A stretch of DNA of 51,703 nucleotides from Candidatus Uhrbacteria bacterium (GTDB lineage Bacteria > Patescibacteriota > Patescibacteriia > UBA9934 > GWF2-40-263). Both the position numbers and the translations under genes were made by a program. Below are positions 4,189 through 49,926 of this stretch, one piece after another; the stretch's first letter is position 1; each line of letters opens with the position of its first letter. The notes under the pieces are model-generated. The model saw only the letters and a list, made by a program, of their open reading frames with translations. It made no database searches and was not told the origin of the DNA. Location of the stretch: NCBI GenBank assembly GCA_016188475.1, contig JACPHT010000008.1, forward strand, positions 98,489 to 150,191, read 5' to 3'.

Positions 4189-4322
4189 TCCGCTCCAGCA
4201 GTGTTATGACGAAATAATCCCTTAGACTCAGGCCGATTATTGCCTGAGCCTGTCGAAGGCCGTAATTGACCTTCGCTCAGGGAGTATGGCTCGCCATTGC
4301 ACTGCTGAAAGCGGATTTGACC
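4189..4322 (+). other. foldback structure enclosing a family-1 palindromic repeat
   Basis: AAATCCGCTCCAGCAGTG (about 4189) pairs with CACTGCTGAAAGCGGATTT (about 4322); family-1 repeat TTATTGCCTGAGCCTGTCGAAGGC...CCTTCGCTCAGGG at 4236-4284. Confidence 0.6.
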
Positions 4323-4993: not shown

Positions 4994-5010
4994 TCTTCTA
5001 AGTTTGGAAG

Positions 5011-5082
5011 TTTATTCCCTGAGCGAAGGCCAATTACGGCCTTCGACAGGCTCAGACAATAACTTGCCGGAGTCGAAGGGTG
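5011..5082. repeat. family-1 palindromic repeat (CCTGAGC..GTCGAAGG type)
   Basis: tttattccctgagcgaaggccaattacggccttcgacaggctcagacaataacttgccggagtcgaagggtg. Confidence 0.8.
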
Positions 5083-6204: not shown

Positions 6205-6394
6205 ACGACAATGGAGGGTACGATGCGTTAATACGCCAACAAGCAAATAGCGCGATAGTATCGCGCGAACAAGCAGGTGCCAACCTACCTGCGGCGAAAA
6301 GTGGCTGGGCCTAGGAGGAGCAGAACTCCCAAGCCGAGGAGGCAAACTCTTGGGCGACCCATCACCTTTTCTCAAAGGTGCGGGGTCGCCCTCC
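6205..6394 (+). ncRNA. candidate structured RNA / long structured 3'UTR
   Basis: Serial hairpins: GCGT/ACGC (6225-6236), GCGCGATA-G-TATCGCGC (6250-6266), GCAGGT/ACCTGC (6273-6292). Direct repeat AACAAGCA at 6238-6245 and 6268-6275. Terminal hairpin GGGCGACCC..ACCTTT/AAAGGT..GGGGTCGCCC. Possible closing GGAGGG/CCCTCC. Confidence 0.5.
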
Positions 6395-6744: not shown

Positions 6745-6822
6745 ACATGAGCACATGTACAATGTTATAGGGAACAGCGGCAACAGTCCGATGACCCGAA
6801 AACATGGTACAAGGGCTCATGT
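6745..6822 (+). repeat. structured hairpin family A, divergent copy
   Basis: ACATGAGC...GTTATAGGGAACAGCGGCAACAGTCCGATGACCCGAAAAC...GCTCATGT; same core layout as the copies at 20621, 26172 and 32090. Confidence 0.6.
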
Positions 6823-20565: not shown

Positions 20566-20762
20566 GATCAATATAGTTCGGATCATCTGTTCGCAGACAT
20601 TTTCAGACTATTAACACAGTAGTAGTGGTTGTGCCATGTCGAAGGGAACAACGGCGAAGAGTCCGTTGGCCCGGAGACATGGCACAACCGCTACTAATGC
20701 CTAATTTAGGCATTTGACATTTCCCAGTGGCGGTCAAGAACAGAGGATCCGGACGATCATTT
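20566..20762. mobile_element. ~197-bp terminal-inverted-repeat element carrying hairpin family A
   Basis: Left GTTCGGATCATCTGTTCGCAGACATT, right GGCGGTCAAGAACAGAGGATCCGGACGATC; both ends match the inverted copy at 43110-43273. Confidence 0.65.
20621..20695 (+). repeat. structured hairpin family A
   Basis: AGTAGTGGTTGTGCCATGTC GAA GGG AA CAACGG CGAAGAGT CCGTTG G CCC GGA GACATGGCACAACCGCTACT. Confidence 0.85.
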
Positions 20763-20795: not shown

Positions 20796-20823
20796 CCCCG
20801 CACCTTTTCACAAAGGTGCGGGG
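20796..20823 (-). terminator. intrinsic terminator of rplJ-rplL; recurring stem
   Basis: CCCCGCACCTTT-TCAC-AAAGGTGCGGGG, T-rich on the minus strand; near-identical stem at 40553-40585. Confidence 0.88.
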
Positions 20824-20828
20824 TTGAA

Positions 20829-21233
20829 TTACTTGATTGTGACTTTTGCTCCAGCTTCCTCTAGCTGTTTCTTAATGTCTTCTGCTTGTTCTTTTGTGAC
20901 TCCTTCTTTCACCATCTTTGGAGCTCCATCAACGAGATCTTTTGCCTCTTTGAGTCCAAGGCCTGTGATTGCGCGTACGACTTTAATCGAACCGATCTTG
21001 TTGTCGCCAGCGGCCGTAAGTTCAACATCAAATGATGTTTTCTCTTCAACTACTGCAGCGCCTGCTCCTGCGCCCCCTGCCACCATCATGGCCGGAGCCG
21101 CCGCACTCACACCGAATTTCTTTTCCAGAATTTTCACAAGTTCTGCAAGGTCCAAAACGGACATTTGCTCGATTTTTGTAACGAGATCCTGGAACTTTGC
21201 AGGAACCTCGAGAACTGATGTTTCGTCTGACAT
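20829..21233 (-). CDS. rplL: 50S ribosomal protein L7/L12
   Basis: [44 protein letters not shown]. Confidence 0.97.
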
Positions 21234-22770: not shown

Positions 22771-22853
22771 AATTTATTTCCTGAGCGGAGGTAAAGTTAC
22801 AGCCTTCGACAAGCTCAGGCAATAACTTTACCGAAGTCGAAGGAATAAATTTT
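22771..22853. repeat. family-1 palindromic repeat with locus-specific outer arms
   Basis: AAATTTATTTCCTGAGCGGAGGTAAAGTTACAGCCTTCGACAAGCTCAGGCAATAACTTTACCGAAGTCGAAGGAATAAATTTT. Confidence 0.85.
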
Positions 22854-24605: not shown

Positions 24606-24704
24606 GTCATTGCGAATTGTTTATTCCATGAGCGAAGGTAAAGTTACGGCCTTCGACGTGCTCAGGCAATAACTTTACCGAAGTCGAAGGGCTGTAAACA
24701 ATGA
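24606..24704. repeat. family-1 palindromic repeat with locus-specific outer arms
   Basis: ATTGTTTATTCC...GGTAAAGTTA...TAACTTTACC...GTCGAAGGGCTGTAAACAAT. Confidence 0.85.
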
Positions 24705-26171: not shown

Positions 26172-26250
26172 GAAGTAGCGGTTGTACCATGTCGGAGTGA
26201 ACAACGGCGAAGAGTCCGTTGGCACGGAGACATGGGACAACCGCTACTTC
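26172..26250 (+). repeat. structured hairpin family A
   Basis: GAAGTAGCGGTTGTACCATGTC GGA GTG AA CAACGG CGAAGAGT CCGTTG G CAC GGA GACATGGGACAACCGCTACTTC. Confidence 0.85.
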
Positions 26251-27646
26251 ACATTGCATTTTCGCACAACCATTTTTTTACATGCGCGGTCGCGCGCACA
26301 TCGTCTTCATTATACTCAAGGATCTTTTGCAACAACTTCTGATTTTTTTTCTTCAGCCATTCCTCAAACCACAAAACTGAATTCGCTCCTGACGCGTCTT
26401 CTGCGCGCCACTCAAAACCCAAATATGCCGCAATGTCTTTAAGAGAATAAAACGACAAAGGGAAAATAACGGTCGGACGAACAACCTCAAGCAAATCAAT
26501 CATATTTCGTTCAAGCGCTTCTCGCGCAATCGCTGAAATTCCATATCTCGCGCCAAAACGGTTTACCACCTCAACTTCAAACTGACCAAAATGATAAATC
26601 GGAGCGTCCAAATGTCCTTCAACAAATGCTACGAACTCATCCCACGCATCTTTTTCCTGCGAAGGAGTTGCCGCAAAAAAAGACTGATATGATTCACGAC
26701 GATTTTCAAGTGTAAGCACTCCAAAAAGATAATCAAAGTCTCGAAGCGGATCGCTTTCAATATCAAAAAAAACTTCGGTCTTTGCAACAGGCAGTTCAAC
26801 TGTTCCACGAAAAATATGCCGCTGCTCTTTAATAGCAATCGCCTGATCGCGCATAATCTCAAGCCGCGACGAGCTAACGTCCGGAACCAAACGTTCAAGA
26901 TCAACCAAAGATTTCAGAGAGAGTTCTGAAATGGTTTTTACTCCAGCCTTTAACAAACGCACGACTTCTTGCCTCCAAACTCGATTCAATAACGACAGAT
27001 CATCACACGCTTCAGATTCACCACGACATTCTTTGAACCATGGTGATTGTTTGCATCCAGAAGTCACAAAATGAACAGGCTGTGTGCCAACGATAATCTT
27101 TTCAATCTCCGAAAGTGTAAGTGTGAATTCTCCTTCAAACTCGCTAATCAAATACGGAATAACAATTTTGTCTGGTGTGATGATATAACCTTGAATAGGC
27201 TTCACACTTTGGATTCGTTCAAGAAGTTCGGCGTAAAAACATCCTTGAAATTTGTGATCGTCGCGAAGAAAACGCGAACGTTTAAGATCAACCGCGACAT
27301 AATAAAAATCACCGAGCTTTGAACGGCCTTCAACTTTTTCAAGCAAATCAGGATGTCCGACAAAATTTTTATCAATGAGCACAGAGTGAAAAATCGTTTG
27401 ACGACCTTCGCGCATAAATTCAAGAGTTTGTCGAAATGCTTCATCAGGGTCTTCAGCATTAATCTCGACCACGTCTAAACGATCAGAAATAATTTCACGT
27501 TGTTTTTCATCAAGAAGTCCATCATCAATCAAACGATCCATAAGAGGATCACGAACTCGTTTTTCAAACGCGTGCACATCAAAGTAAACCCAGTTCGGGC
27601 ATTTGATGTATTGATAAAAAGTTTTTTCAGTGATACGAGAAAGCAT
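26249..27646 (-). CDS. TM0106-family RecB-like putative nuclease
   Basis: YYVAVDLKRSRFL...EVFFDIESDPLRDFDYLFGVLTLENRRESYQSFFA...YNEDDVRATAHVKKWL. Confidence 0.8.
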   Translation of the reverse strand: MLSRITEKTFYQYIKCPNWVYFDVHAFEKRVRDPLMDRLIDDGLLDEKQREIISDRLDVVEINAEDPDEAFRQTLEFMREGRQTIFHSVLIDKNFVGHPDLLEKVEGRSKLGDFYYVAVDLKRSRFLRDDHKFQGCFYAELLERIQSVKPIQGYIITPDKIVIPYLISEFEGEFTLTLSEIEKIIVGTQPVHFVTSGCKQSPWFKECRGESEACDDLSLLNRVWRQEVVRLLKAGVKTISELSLKSLVDLERLVPDVSSSRLEIMRDQAIAIKEQRHIFRGTVELPVAKTEVFFDIESDPLRDFDYLFGVLTLENRRESYQSFFAATPSQEKDAWDEFVAFVEGHLDAPIYHFGQFEVEVVNRFGARYGISAIAREALERNMIDLLEVVRPTVIFPLSFYSLKDIAAYLGFEWRAEDASGANSVLWFEEWLKKKNQKLLQKILEYNEDDVRATAHVKKWLCENAM

Positions 27647-27660
27647 GAAGACATTATAGA

Positions 27661-27718
27661 ATTATTGCCTGAGCTTGTCGAAGGCTGTAAAGATTATTGC
27701 ATGAGCTTGTCGAAGGCA
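27661..27718. repeat. family-1 repeat, direct tandem pair
   Basis: attattgcctgagcttgtcgaaggctgtaaagattattgcatgagcttgtcgaaggc. Confidence 0.85.
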
Positions 27719-29003: not shown

Positions 29004-29019
29004 CCATTCGACTAGTGAA

Positions 29020-29125
29020 AGTTATTGCCTGAGCTTGTCGAAGGCAGTAATGCGAAATTTTCTAAAATTTATTCCATGGTCTATCTTAAAGCTATGGCCT
29101 TCAACAGGCCCAGGCAATAAGCTTT
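29020..29125. repeat. family-1 repeat pair
   Basis: gttattgcctgagcttgtcgaaggc ... atggccttcaacaggcccaggcaataa. Confidence 0.75.
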
Positions 29126-29128
29126 TGC

Positions 29129-29842
29129 TCATGGAATATATTTCAAAATTTCTTCTATCAAACCATTGTCATGATCCGTCATCTGTGTTCCATGCCCGAT
29201 TCCAGAGCGTTCGATCAAAATCGTCTGCTCTGGATTTTTTTTATGCAAAACTTGAACTGACTCAAACGATTCAGAATCATCATCGCTTGCTACCAAAATG
29301 ACTTTTTGATTCCCACCTAAATTTTGAATGGCTGGCGCTGTTAAAACTCCGTGATAATCAAGCCCGGGAGAAAGAACAACAGCCGTTGAGATATTTTTGT
29401 GTTCAACAAGCGCTTGAATCGCGAGATTCGCCCCGATAGAGGCACCGATCAAAACAATTCGGTTTTCTTCAAACCCTTTTTCTTTTGCAAACGCGATCGC
29501 GGCTTCAACATCCAAACGTTTTGCTTGCTGTTGTGCGTCGGAAAAATTTTTGTAATTCAATTCTCCGTTCATTGTGCTTTCTCCGTGTCCGCGTTCATCT
29601 ATTGCAAGTGACGCATATCCATACTTAGATAATTTTTCAGCAAAACTTTCCCAACTTTCCTTTGTGGCAGGCATCATATGAAACAACAGTGCAATCTTTT
29701 CCTGATTTGTGTTGCGATATGTTCCAATGATGTTAATTTCATCTGAAGTTTTTAGAATTATTCTTTCTGACATAGTTTTATTTTGCGCGCATCCTGCGCC
29801 GATTACAAAAATAAGCGTTAAAAAAATAACAAACAATTTCAT
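29129..29842 (-). CDS. alpha/beta hydrolase, lipoprotein
   Basis: IGAGCAQ lipobox; IDERGHGES; VLIGASIGANLAIQAL. Confidence 0.85.
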   Translation of the reverse strand: MKLFVIFLTLIFVIGAGCAQNKTMSERIILKTSDEINIIGTYRNTNQEKIALLFHMMPATKESWESFAEKLSKYGYASLAIDERGHGESTMNGELNYKNFSDAQQQAKRLDVEAAIAFAKEKGFEENRIVLIGASIGANLAIQALVEHKNISTAVVLSPGLDYHGVLTAPAIQNLGGNQKVILVASDDDSESFESVQVLHKKNPEQTILIERSGIGHGTQMTDHDNGLIEEILKYIP

Positions 29843-32078: not shown

Positions 32079-32089
32079 AAGGAAAACAT

Positions 32090-32168
32090 AAACGAGCGGC
32101 AGCACTATGTCGGAGGGAACAGCGGCGAGGAGTCCGCTGGCCCGGAGACATGGTACTGCCGCTCGTTT
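32090..32168 (+). repeat. structured hairpin family A
   Basis: AAACGAGCGGCAGCACTATGTC GGA GGG AA CAGCGG CGAGGAGT CCGCTG G CCC GGA GACATGGTACTGCCGCTCGTTT. Confidence 0.87.
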
Positions 32169-33297
32169 AATACTCCGCGGGTTCGTATACATTTCGTGCG
32201 TTCCAAAGTATCCAACCAGACGCTCCTGCATCACGAGCGGCTTTAATTTGCGCTTCGACCATATCAGCTGTATACACTGCTCCGATATCAAAATCCTGAA
32301 GCCACGGACGCCAGTGAGAGCGCAATTTCGAATCAGAGTCAGAATAAAATCCGTGAGTTAATCTTGTTCCTTCATCAAGCGAACGTTTGACAATCTCATA
32401 TGGAAATTCTGCAGGATTTGCAAAACCTTCAAACCCATCAACATAATGAGATGGGTAAACCATTGGTGAAACAAAATCAGCGTAAGGCAACACATCAATA
32501 AGACGCTGACCTATATTAAAATCATCAAACGACCAAAATGTCATACCAAAAACATCAAACGAAACTGGAATTTTTTCTTCACGCATCGCTTCGCCAATCG
32601 TTTTAAAAAAACTGCGTATAATCTCAACCTTACTTTTTTTATAGTCGTAAACTGGATAAACAATAGAATTCGTGGTTCCGTCTGAAGCAAAACGAACATA
32701 ATCAAATTGAACTTCATCAAATCCACGCGCATAAGCTTCTCTCGCAAGTTCTATCGCATAGTGAGCAACTTCTGGTGCGGCAGGATCAACCCAAATCGAA
32801 CCAATCTTGTCTGTCCAAAAATCGCCGTTGGATTGCTTCATCGCAAATTCAGGATGTGTTTCTCCAAACTTTCTATCGCGCATAACAGCAATGCGAGCAA
32901 TCCTATAAATTCCATTGTCAAAAAGTTTTACAAGAAGACCGTCAAAATCAGTAATGGCTGGTTCTGTTTGTTGATAAATTTTCAATGTTTCACTTTTTGG
33001 AATAAACGCAATTTTTCCATCGTCCATTTTAAGATCAATTACAACAGTATTAAGCCCTCGTTCTTTCATGTACGAAAGCAGTTCATCAGCTCGTTCAGAA
33101 CCGGCTGTTGAAGCTGTCCAGTACAAACCACGAACTTCTGAAGGAAGAGGAATGTGAATGTCCTCTTTTGTCATCCTTTGTTCTCCTGTGTCCTTTTCTT
33201 TAGATTCTTCACTCAACAGAGCGGTGGAGTTCAGAACAAAAACAATTCCAACCAAAAATACGAGCGACAAAATAATCAGCCCGTATTTCTTTGACAT
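32167..33297 (-). CDS. putative glycoside hydrolase (DUF4015/GHL13-like)
   Basis: VRGLYWTASTAGSERADELLSYMKERGLNTVVIDLKMDDGKI...GFDEVQFDYVRFASDG...VSPMVYPSHY. Confidence 0.88.
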   Translation of the reverse strand: MSKKYGLIILSLVFLVGIVFVLNSTALLSEESKEKDTGEQRMTKEDIHIPLPSEVRGLYWTASTAGSERADELLSYMKERGLNTVVIDLKMDDGKIAFIPKSETLKIYQQTEPAITDFDGLLVKLFDNGIYRIARIAVMRDRKFGETHPEFAMKQSNGDFWTDKIGSIWVDPAAPEVAHYAIELAREAYARGFDEVQFDYVRFASDGTTNSIVYPVYDYKKSKVEIIRSFFKTIGEAMREEKIPVSFDVFGMTFWSFDDFNIGQRLIDVLPYADFVSPMVYPSHYVDGFEGFANPAEFPYEIVKRSLDEGTRLTHGFYSDSDSKLRSHWRPWLQDFDIGAVYTADMVEAQIKAARDAGASGWILWNARNVYEPAEY

Positions 33298-33298
33298 A

Positions 33299-33892
33299 TT
33301 ATTTTGATTCCACCGCGACTGCTTCCATCTTATCTCCAACTTGGATTTGATCAACGATTTCCATTCCTTCTGTAACGCGTCCAAAAATCGTGTACGCTTT
33401 TGGAAGCGGCACATCGCCCAACATTACAAAAAACTGTGATCCGTTTGTGTTTGGCCCGCGATTGGCCATTGCGACTATTCCTCGTTTATATTGATATGAA
33501 TCAACAACTTCGTCTTCAAATTCATAACCTGGGCCTCCAGTTCCATCTCCATTTGGATCACCGCCCTGAATCACAAACCCTTCTTCACGACGGTGAAATG
33601 TGAGCCCATTGAAATATCCGCCTTTTGTTAAATAAACAAAATTGGAAACGGCCTTGGGCGCAGTGTCTGCAAACAATTCAAAAACAATATCTCCCTTCGC
33701 AGTTTTTATTCGAATTTGTTTATTCGCAATTTCTTCAGAAGAAAGCACACCAGGAAATTCCCATGTTTGTGTTTTTGTTTCTTTCACAGGTTCATTAAAA
33801 GTAATTTTTAAATTTTCTTCGGATGGTTTTGTGGCACATCCAGCGCCAAGAAGAATCAACAATCCAACAGCTGAAATGAGATACTTTCGCAT
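33299..33892 (-). CDS. peptidyl-prolyl cis-trans isomerase (cyclophilin), lipoprotein
   Basis: ADTAPKAVSNFVYLTKGGYFNGLTFHRREEGFVIQGGDPNGDGTGGPGYEFEDE. Confidence 0.95.
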   Translation of the reverse strand: MRKYLISAVGLLILLGAGCATKPSEENLKITFNEPVKETKTQTWEFPGVLSSEEIANKQIRIKTAKGDIVFELFADTAPKAVSNFVYLTKGGYFNGLTFHRREEGFVIQGGDPNGDGTGGPGYEFEDEVVDSYQYKRGIVAMANRGPNTNGSQFFVMLGDVPLPKAYTIFGRVTEGMEIVDQIQVGDKMEAVAVESK

Positions 33893-40552: not shown

Positions 40553-40585
40553 GACCCCCGCACCTTTTCACAAAGGTGCGGGGTC
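40553..40585 (-). terminator. intrinsic terminator; same stem as 20796-20823
   Basis: GACCCCCGCACCTTTTCACAAAGGTGCGGGGTC with minus-strand TCTTTTTT; overlaps the stop codon of the upstream gene. Confidence 0.85.
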
Positions 40586-41940: not shown

Positions 41941-42015
41941 TTGTTGCCTATTCGACTCCGGTAATTATTGCCTGAGCCGGTCGAAGGCTATAATTGCCTC
42001 CGCTCAGGGAATATA
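41941..42015. repeat. family-1 palindromic repeat
   Basis: ttgttgcctattcgactccggtaattattgcctgagccggtcgaaggctataattgcctccgctcaggga. Confidence 0.75.
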
Positions 42016-49849: not shown

Positions 49850-49926
49850 TTTTTATTCCCTGAGCTTGTCGAAGGGATAAAAAGCGATCTCATGTTACAT
49901 CGCCTTCGACAGGCTCAGGCAATATT
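49850..49926. repeat. family-1 palindromic repeat with locus-specific outer arms
   Basis: CGCTTTTTATTCCCTGAGCTTGTCGAAGGGATAAAAAGCG ... CGCCTTCGACAGGCTCAGGCAATA. Confidence 0.85.

Follow-up and report, generated by a model that had tools for sequence, protein, structure and literature searches.

A covarying hairpin of Uhrbacteria-type Patescibacteria that is probably a small dispersed palindromic DNA repeat

The stretch of DNA analysed here (the window) comprises 51,703 nucleotides of a Candidatus Uhrbacteria genome, bases 98489-150191 of contig 1 in an assembly of 893 kb in 10 contigs that is 97.7% complete (G000). It holds four copies of a hairpin that we call hairpin A (Table 1). A preliminary description made from the sequence had reported four such hairpins in one orientation, and all of them are found where it placed them, each folding far better than shuffled sequence (z of -5.0 for the copy at 6745, -10.6 at 20621, -11.2 at 26172 and -9.9 at 32090). 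The common layout it proposed fits closely at 20621, 26172 and 32090, where the last has TATGTC in place of CATGTC, but not at 6745, where CATGTC has become AATGTT, GRA has become ATA, GGA has become GAA, the loop reads CAACAGT, and the pairing of CAGCGG with CCGATG contains a mismatch. The ortholog of this degenerate copy in a sister species (G001, locus L072) is intact, with compensatory changes in its arms. Also real are the compensatory pairs claimed among the copies, namely CAACGG/CCGTTG versus CAGCGG/CCGCTG, GGG/CCC versus GTG/CAC, and outer arms that are specific to each locus and remain complementary.

Table 1. Hairpin A copies in the window and the larger inverted repeat around one of them.
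Feature	Position in window	Strand	Description
Hairpin A copy 1	20620..20696	+	21-bp arm, GAA/GGA internal loop, GGG/CCC, AA/G, CAACGG/CCGTTG, loop CGAAGAGT
Hairpin A copy 2	26172..26250	+	GTG/CAC variant
Hairpin A copy 3	32089..32169	+	CAGCGG/CCGCTG, loop CGAGGAGT
Hairpin A copy 4	6745..6822	+	degenerate
Repeat B (larger inverted repeat enclosing copy 1)	about 20576..20754	+	stem GTTCGGATCATCTGTTC ... GAACAGAGGATCCGGAC

Copy 1 scores 101.5 bits with the R1 model (as G000:C1:119099-119184), and the repeat B around it recurs in the genome, where it encloses several further hairpin A copies too. Copy 2 adjoins the stop codon of a gene at 26249-27646 (-), and the stop codon of another gene, at 32167-33414 (-), falls within the outer arm of copy 3. 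The window contains other repeats as well. Three near-identical terminator-like hairpins (CCCCGCACCTTTTCACAAAGGTGCGGGGT) lie at 20796-20824, 40556-40584 and 6358-6386, the first of which comes after the stop codon of ORF 20829-21233 (-). Repeats of the CCTGAGCTTGTCGAAGG / CCTTCGACAAGCTCAGG type occur at 4230-4261, 5010-5080, 22773-22843, 24620-24690, 27655-27718, 29015-29138, 41958-41989 and 49854-49924; several of these are long intergenic hairpins, and elsewhere in the genome the same family carries the 92-nt module described below.

Hairpin A has a stem whose length peaks at 20-22 bp (~21 bp), with a conserved asymmetric core of ~38 nt at the stem tip. After the stem, the core runs through a 3x3 internal loop of GNA opposite GGA, a 3-bp step (GGG/CCC, at times GTG/CAC or AGG/CCT), AA/G and a stem of 6 bp, which is CAACGG/CCGTTG or a variant of it, and closes with a loop, either CGA[C/T]AGT or CGANNAGT. 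The covarying pairing claimed in the preliminary description is very strongly borne out. A covariance model was built from 14 copies (its E-values are rough) and related genomes were searched with it. Among 45 copies from seven genomes, double-sided changes occur in 25 of the 29 pairs, and not one of 500 shuffles reached the covariation score; in the 45 copies, 95.2% of cells are paired in register, compared with at most 42.4% when the arms are slid against each other. Among 30 distinct arm groups, the core is 92% identical (in copies with the 8-nt loop) and its unpaired positions are conserved as had been described, while the 5' arm is only 35% identical, yet the arms are 93% paired. Within the same 30 groups, G.T wobble pairs outnumber A.C mismatches by 38 to 13 (p=0.0006), which indicates that the fold being kept is that of the strand originally written out. 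Selection on the fold of one strand is suggested both by the excess of G.T over A.C and by the conservation of unpaired positions. Since GNA/GGA internal loops and C-GNNA-G loops are stable in DNA as in RNA, what is recognised could be single-stranded DNA; a literature search on DNA tetraloops returned nothing relevant. Neither hairpin form has a match over the element in Rfam 15 at the gathering score, in agreement with the initial failure to place it among known ribozymes and riboswitches, and when the thresholds are relaxed, the microRNA, snoRNA or unrelated models that turn up near the element remain below threshold.

The four copies in the window are a sample of a larger set. A pattern search of the genome recovered 13 copies of the short kind and, besides these, a longer form, and the covariance-model search found ~27 short copies in G000, plus longer forms. 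Match counts give ~18 copies for G001, ~30 for G002 (the other sister species), ~23 for G015 and ~10 for G027, numbers that are approximate because in some of them one copy is also matched on its reverse strand, and because weak copies are missed. MAG fragmentation hides copies and genes. Of the five multi-copy carriers, three belong to the home genus and two to a second genus of the family, and single copies occur in three further genomes belonging to other genera of the family. Among the carriers with named records, one is a Ca. Parcubacteria MAG and the others are MAGs of Candidatus Uhrbacteria. No match was obtained in the remaining genomes of the order that were searched, none outside the family among 389 sampled genomes of the class (under tighter filtering, with a small number of candidates taken from each), and none for the core pattern in the viral contigs searched. 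Hairpin A is absent from most of the family and occurs in a few genera, a distribution that would not be expected of a housekeeping RNA. Searches of the literature gave no relevant account of palindromic repeats in Patescibacteria.

The uniform orientation noted in the window extends to the whole host contig (10/10 copies) but fails genome-wide. Replication-strand bias, which the contig 1 copies had suggested, was rejected, since it is not significant across G000 (21 copies on the lagging strand against 10 on the leading strand, p=0.07) and is absent in a second genus (8:8 in G015). With gene context taken from simple ORF calling, about 60 copies could be placed: one lies between divergent genes, 12 lie between convergent genes, and the rest are in co-directional pairs, about 22 in sense and 28 in antisense. 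In all but the one divergent setting, therefore, the copy is 3' of at least one gene.

Comparison of orthologous loci with the two sister species revealed both gain or loss of copies and inversion of the core. Two positions in the home genome (C9:78650 and C1:12763) are empty where G002 is filled by hairpin A, and at C1:98093 a different palindrome, of the GCTTGTCGAAGG type, occupies the slot where G001 carries hairpin A. At C1:130570, which is the 32090 copy of the window, the core has the same orientation in G000 and G001 and the opposite one in G002, with flanks that remain alignable over ~500-600 nt at 77-84% identity; the core at C10:44269 also points the other way from that of G002 (88-91% identity). 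At C9:132772 the G000 core bears an extra ~92-nt two-hairpin module and the G001 core is plain, reflecting a gain or a loss. Over eight orthologous loci, 15 stem pairs have changed on both sides and nine on one side without losing their pairing, and a further 13 lack pairing in one species. Two of these loci show the double changes as blocks of four neighbouring pairs. Divergence between the species is too great for target-site duplications or precise empty sites to be read, and no clean example of either was seen.

The core is also found within other palindromes. It sits inside TCATTGCGAGG...CCTCGCAATGA palindrome arms (L133), inside TCATTTTGA...TCAAAATGA palindrome arms (L113, L115, L124 and L125) and, as for copy 1 of the window, in repeat B. 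The ~92-nt module occurs within hairpin A and within the GCTTGTCGAAGG palindrome. Three copies of a ~150-bp unit that includes hairpin A, with near-identical arms, are present in G015 (L143, L145).

Several companion sequences were recorded alongside these. The ~92-nt two-hairpin module (GTCGAGGAGGAGTAAAGAAGCC...CAACACC) recurs almost unchanged at nine or more places, in two unrelated palindrome families (L014-L016, L019 and L021-L025, about 1430-1600). In two copies of hairpin A a small extra hairpin, CCTGCC-AAA-GGCAGG, is inserted close to the terminal loop (L060 and L061, about 1501-1606, -). The 3' end of the ~150-bp unit of G015, TTTCGTAATTCA, is similar to the ends of another palindrome family of the home genome. 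A structured element, D (GAGACAGACGGGCCGACTTTTTC...GAAAAAGCGTCCCGTAACTGTCTC), lies 5' of repeat B, upstream of hairpin A, at L045, L047, L054 and L057; it also stands alone, for example near 43300 of contig C7 in the home genome, and has no Rfam match at the gathering score. The conserved 16-nt motif TTTCGTARTTCAYARC was considered as a transposon end and rejected, since it is mainly part of another palindrome family.

In seven genomes (G001, G002, G015, G027, G006, G060 and G019) a hairpin A copy lies inside tgt, the gene for queuine tRNA-ribosyltransferase, which we identified by its conserved motifs, and introduces neither a stop codon nor a frameshift. The insertion position is the same throughout, between RWAKRCK and LFGIVQGG, where the other tgt genes that were read have short linkers or unrelated inserts, often repetitive or palindromic; in G063 the linker is occupied by a palindrome of the TCATTGCGAGG type. 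G006 and G060, which belong to one genus, carry the tgt hairpin in opposite orientations. The linker is apparently a tolerant insertion site. Among 90 copies scanned, tgt was the only host gene, and the other open frames running through copies were not recognised as genes. In G000 the tgt gene was not found, though both sister species have it, and it has either been lost or falls in an assembly gap. Across many genomes of the family, the short repeats and palindromes found in the RWAKRCK-LFGIVQGG linker (L243-L272) differ from one another.

We consider hairpin A to be a small dispersed mobile-type palindromic DNA repeat, REP/RPE-like in its behaviour, of one Uhrbacteria-type family of Patescibacteria, a reading to which we give a probability of roughly 60%. 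A stem that is variable yet paired, together with in-frame entry into tgt, points to a mobile palindromic repeat rather than to something like a riboswitch or ribozyme. What speaks against this reading is that no mobilising enzyme is identified among the Y1, IS110-type and reverse transcriptase candidates, that between species so diverged neither a clean target-site duplication nor a precise empty site could be read, and that template switching alone does not account for the signs of selection on one strand's fold. The preliminary description had instead seen selection on an RNA or single-stranded DNA fold, and the covariation, the G.T excess and the conserved unpaired core all agree with it; selection on RNA, however, is not required to explain them. 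In its explicit form this alternative is a functional structured RNA (an mRNA 3'-end stabiliser, an RNase III or protein-binding site, or an sRNA) that is selected for its fold and spread by ordinary duplication. The number of double-sided pairs, the pairing in register, the mismatch ratio, the conserved purine internal loops and GANNA-type loop, and a position nearly always 3' of a gene would all suit such an RNA. Sense and antisense placements are about equal, however, and the core flips at orthologous loci and within tgt. Most of the family does without the repeat, seven genomes hold it in a coding gene, and different palindromes can take its place at the same locus. Because of the mixed gene orientation, the flipped cores, the copies gained and lost, the nesting and the in-frame tgt copies, selection on a cis-acting RNA is not the best reading, and we regard a structured RNA as possible but unlikely.

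The system closest to hairpin A in behaviour, by its in-frame insertion, is that of the Rickettsia palindromic elements (RPE; traits from PMC10969869), the two being compared by their traits. Each is a palindromic repeat dispersed through a group of bacteria with small genomes, and each occurs in frame inside protein genes. Hairpin A is shorter (about 80 bp versus about 150 bp for RPE), has a conserved core but arms that are different at nearly every locus, and is mostly intergenic, with tgt as its sole host gene, whereas RPE insert into many unrelated genes. Classical REP elements and related GTAG- and CGTC-tagged palindromes (PMC3733652, PMC8266576) resemble it in being numerous, intergenic hairpins 3' of genes with conserved internal mismatches, and placement between divergent genes is as rare for hairpin A as noted above. 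Yet hairpin A is about twice as long, has variable arms, and does not form the close opposite pairs of BIMEs or REPINs, its nearest neighbours being about 1.1-1.5 kb apart.

A classical REP element would be mobilised by a RAYT/TnpA-REP transposase, and there are three Y1_Tnp genes in G000. None of them is flanked by hairpin A, however, and the many-copy genomes G001, G015 and G027 (three of the five multi-copy genomes, all of the comparison resting on incomplete MAGs) have no Y1_Tnp match. The foot of the hairpin is GTAG in 0/84 copies and CGTC in 1/84. RAYT (Y1_Tnp) was accordingly rejected as the driver for want of co-occurrence and flanking copies, IS110-type transposases because they are absent from all carriers, and reverse transcriptases because their distribution does not track the repeat. 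The preliminary description had named a match to a described Rfam or REP family as what would count against its fold-selection reading. Hairpin A does behave as REP-type dispersed palindromic DNA, but Rfam offers no match, and the REP definition fails because the GTAG/CGTC foot is missing and three of the five multi-copy genomes lack RAYT, which leaves a true REP element very unlikely. MITEs are similarly short and non-coding, with inverted repeats, and are presumably mobilised in trans; the inverted repeats of hairpin A differ from theirs in not being common to the copies, which fall into the distinct arm groups described above, no parent transposon was found, and the empty sites are too diverged for a target-site duplication to be read. 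Integron attC sites have a conserved outer part and a variable inside. This is the reverse of the pattern in hairpin A, and attC was set aside.

Template switching during replication leaves blocks of neighbouring compensatory changes, lengthens stems and inverts loops (PMC8794818). Hairpin A shares these traits, having adjacent compensatory blocks at two orthologous loci, stem extension, and inversions at C1:130570, C10:44269 and in tgt. Since adjacent paired runs and flips are the footprint of template switching, covariation of the arms does not by itself prove RNA selection. Hairpin A differs from the hairpins of that study in that its tip is a conserved, dispersed cassette, its stems are about 21 bp, and the part that inverts is ~38 nt long instead of a 4-8-nt loop. 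The same process could in principle account for everything, if hairpin A were an old inert palindrome whose arms stay complementary solely through template switching, with no recognised core. The double changes and core inversions fit this, but the contrast in identity between core and arms and the persistence of unpaired positions imply that the core is not freely drifting. Such a purely mutational origin is very improbable.

A family of intrinsic or bidirectional transcription terminators, for which a stable hairpin mostly downstream of genes would be apt, is hardly credible given that only 6/84 copies have a T-rich 3' foot, as expected from the original remark that this is not a simple terminator, and that the 6745 copy is flanked by two separate terminator-like hairpins. 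Least credible is a self-cleaving ribozyme or riboswitch: the asymmetric conserved core and strong fold would be appropriate, but neither form matches Rfam, the orientation of downstream genes is inconsistent, and the core is invertible.

If hairpin A is a mobile palindromic repeat, we infer that a trans-acting factor may recognise the fold of the single-stranded core and so bring about dispersal. Template switching between the two arms would keep them complementary, sometimes extending them and sometimes flipping the core. Weak selection might then favour hairpins that are harmless at the 3' side of genes, where copies would persist. A more specific form of this idea, which we offer tentatively and think unlikely, is a mobile "hairpin-tip cassette", in which the conserved ~38-nt core would enter the tips of unrelated palindromes or be exchanged between them, and fold-back synthesis would rebuild the flanking ~21-bp stem anew at every site, using the local sequence. 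Were this true, hairpin A would have no fixed ends as a mobile element, and the factor that moves it would recognise the single-stranded core.

Strong covariation is usually taken as proof of a functional RNA. In hairpin A, covariation at nearly every pair occurs alongside DNA that is invertible, nested and apparently mobile, and this combination provides a natural test for distinguishing RNA selection from template switching. The repeat apparently adds an undescribed palindromic family, with insertion inside a gene, to the candidate phyla radiation.
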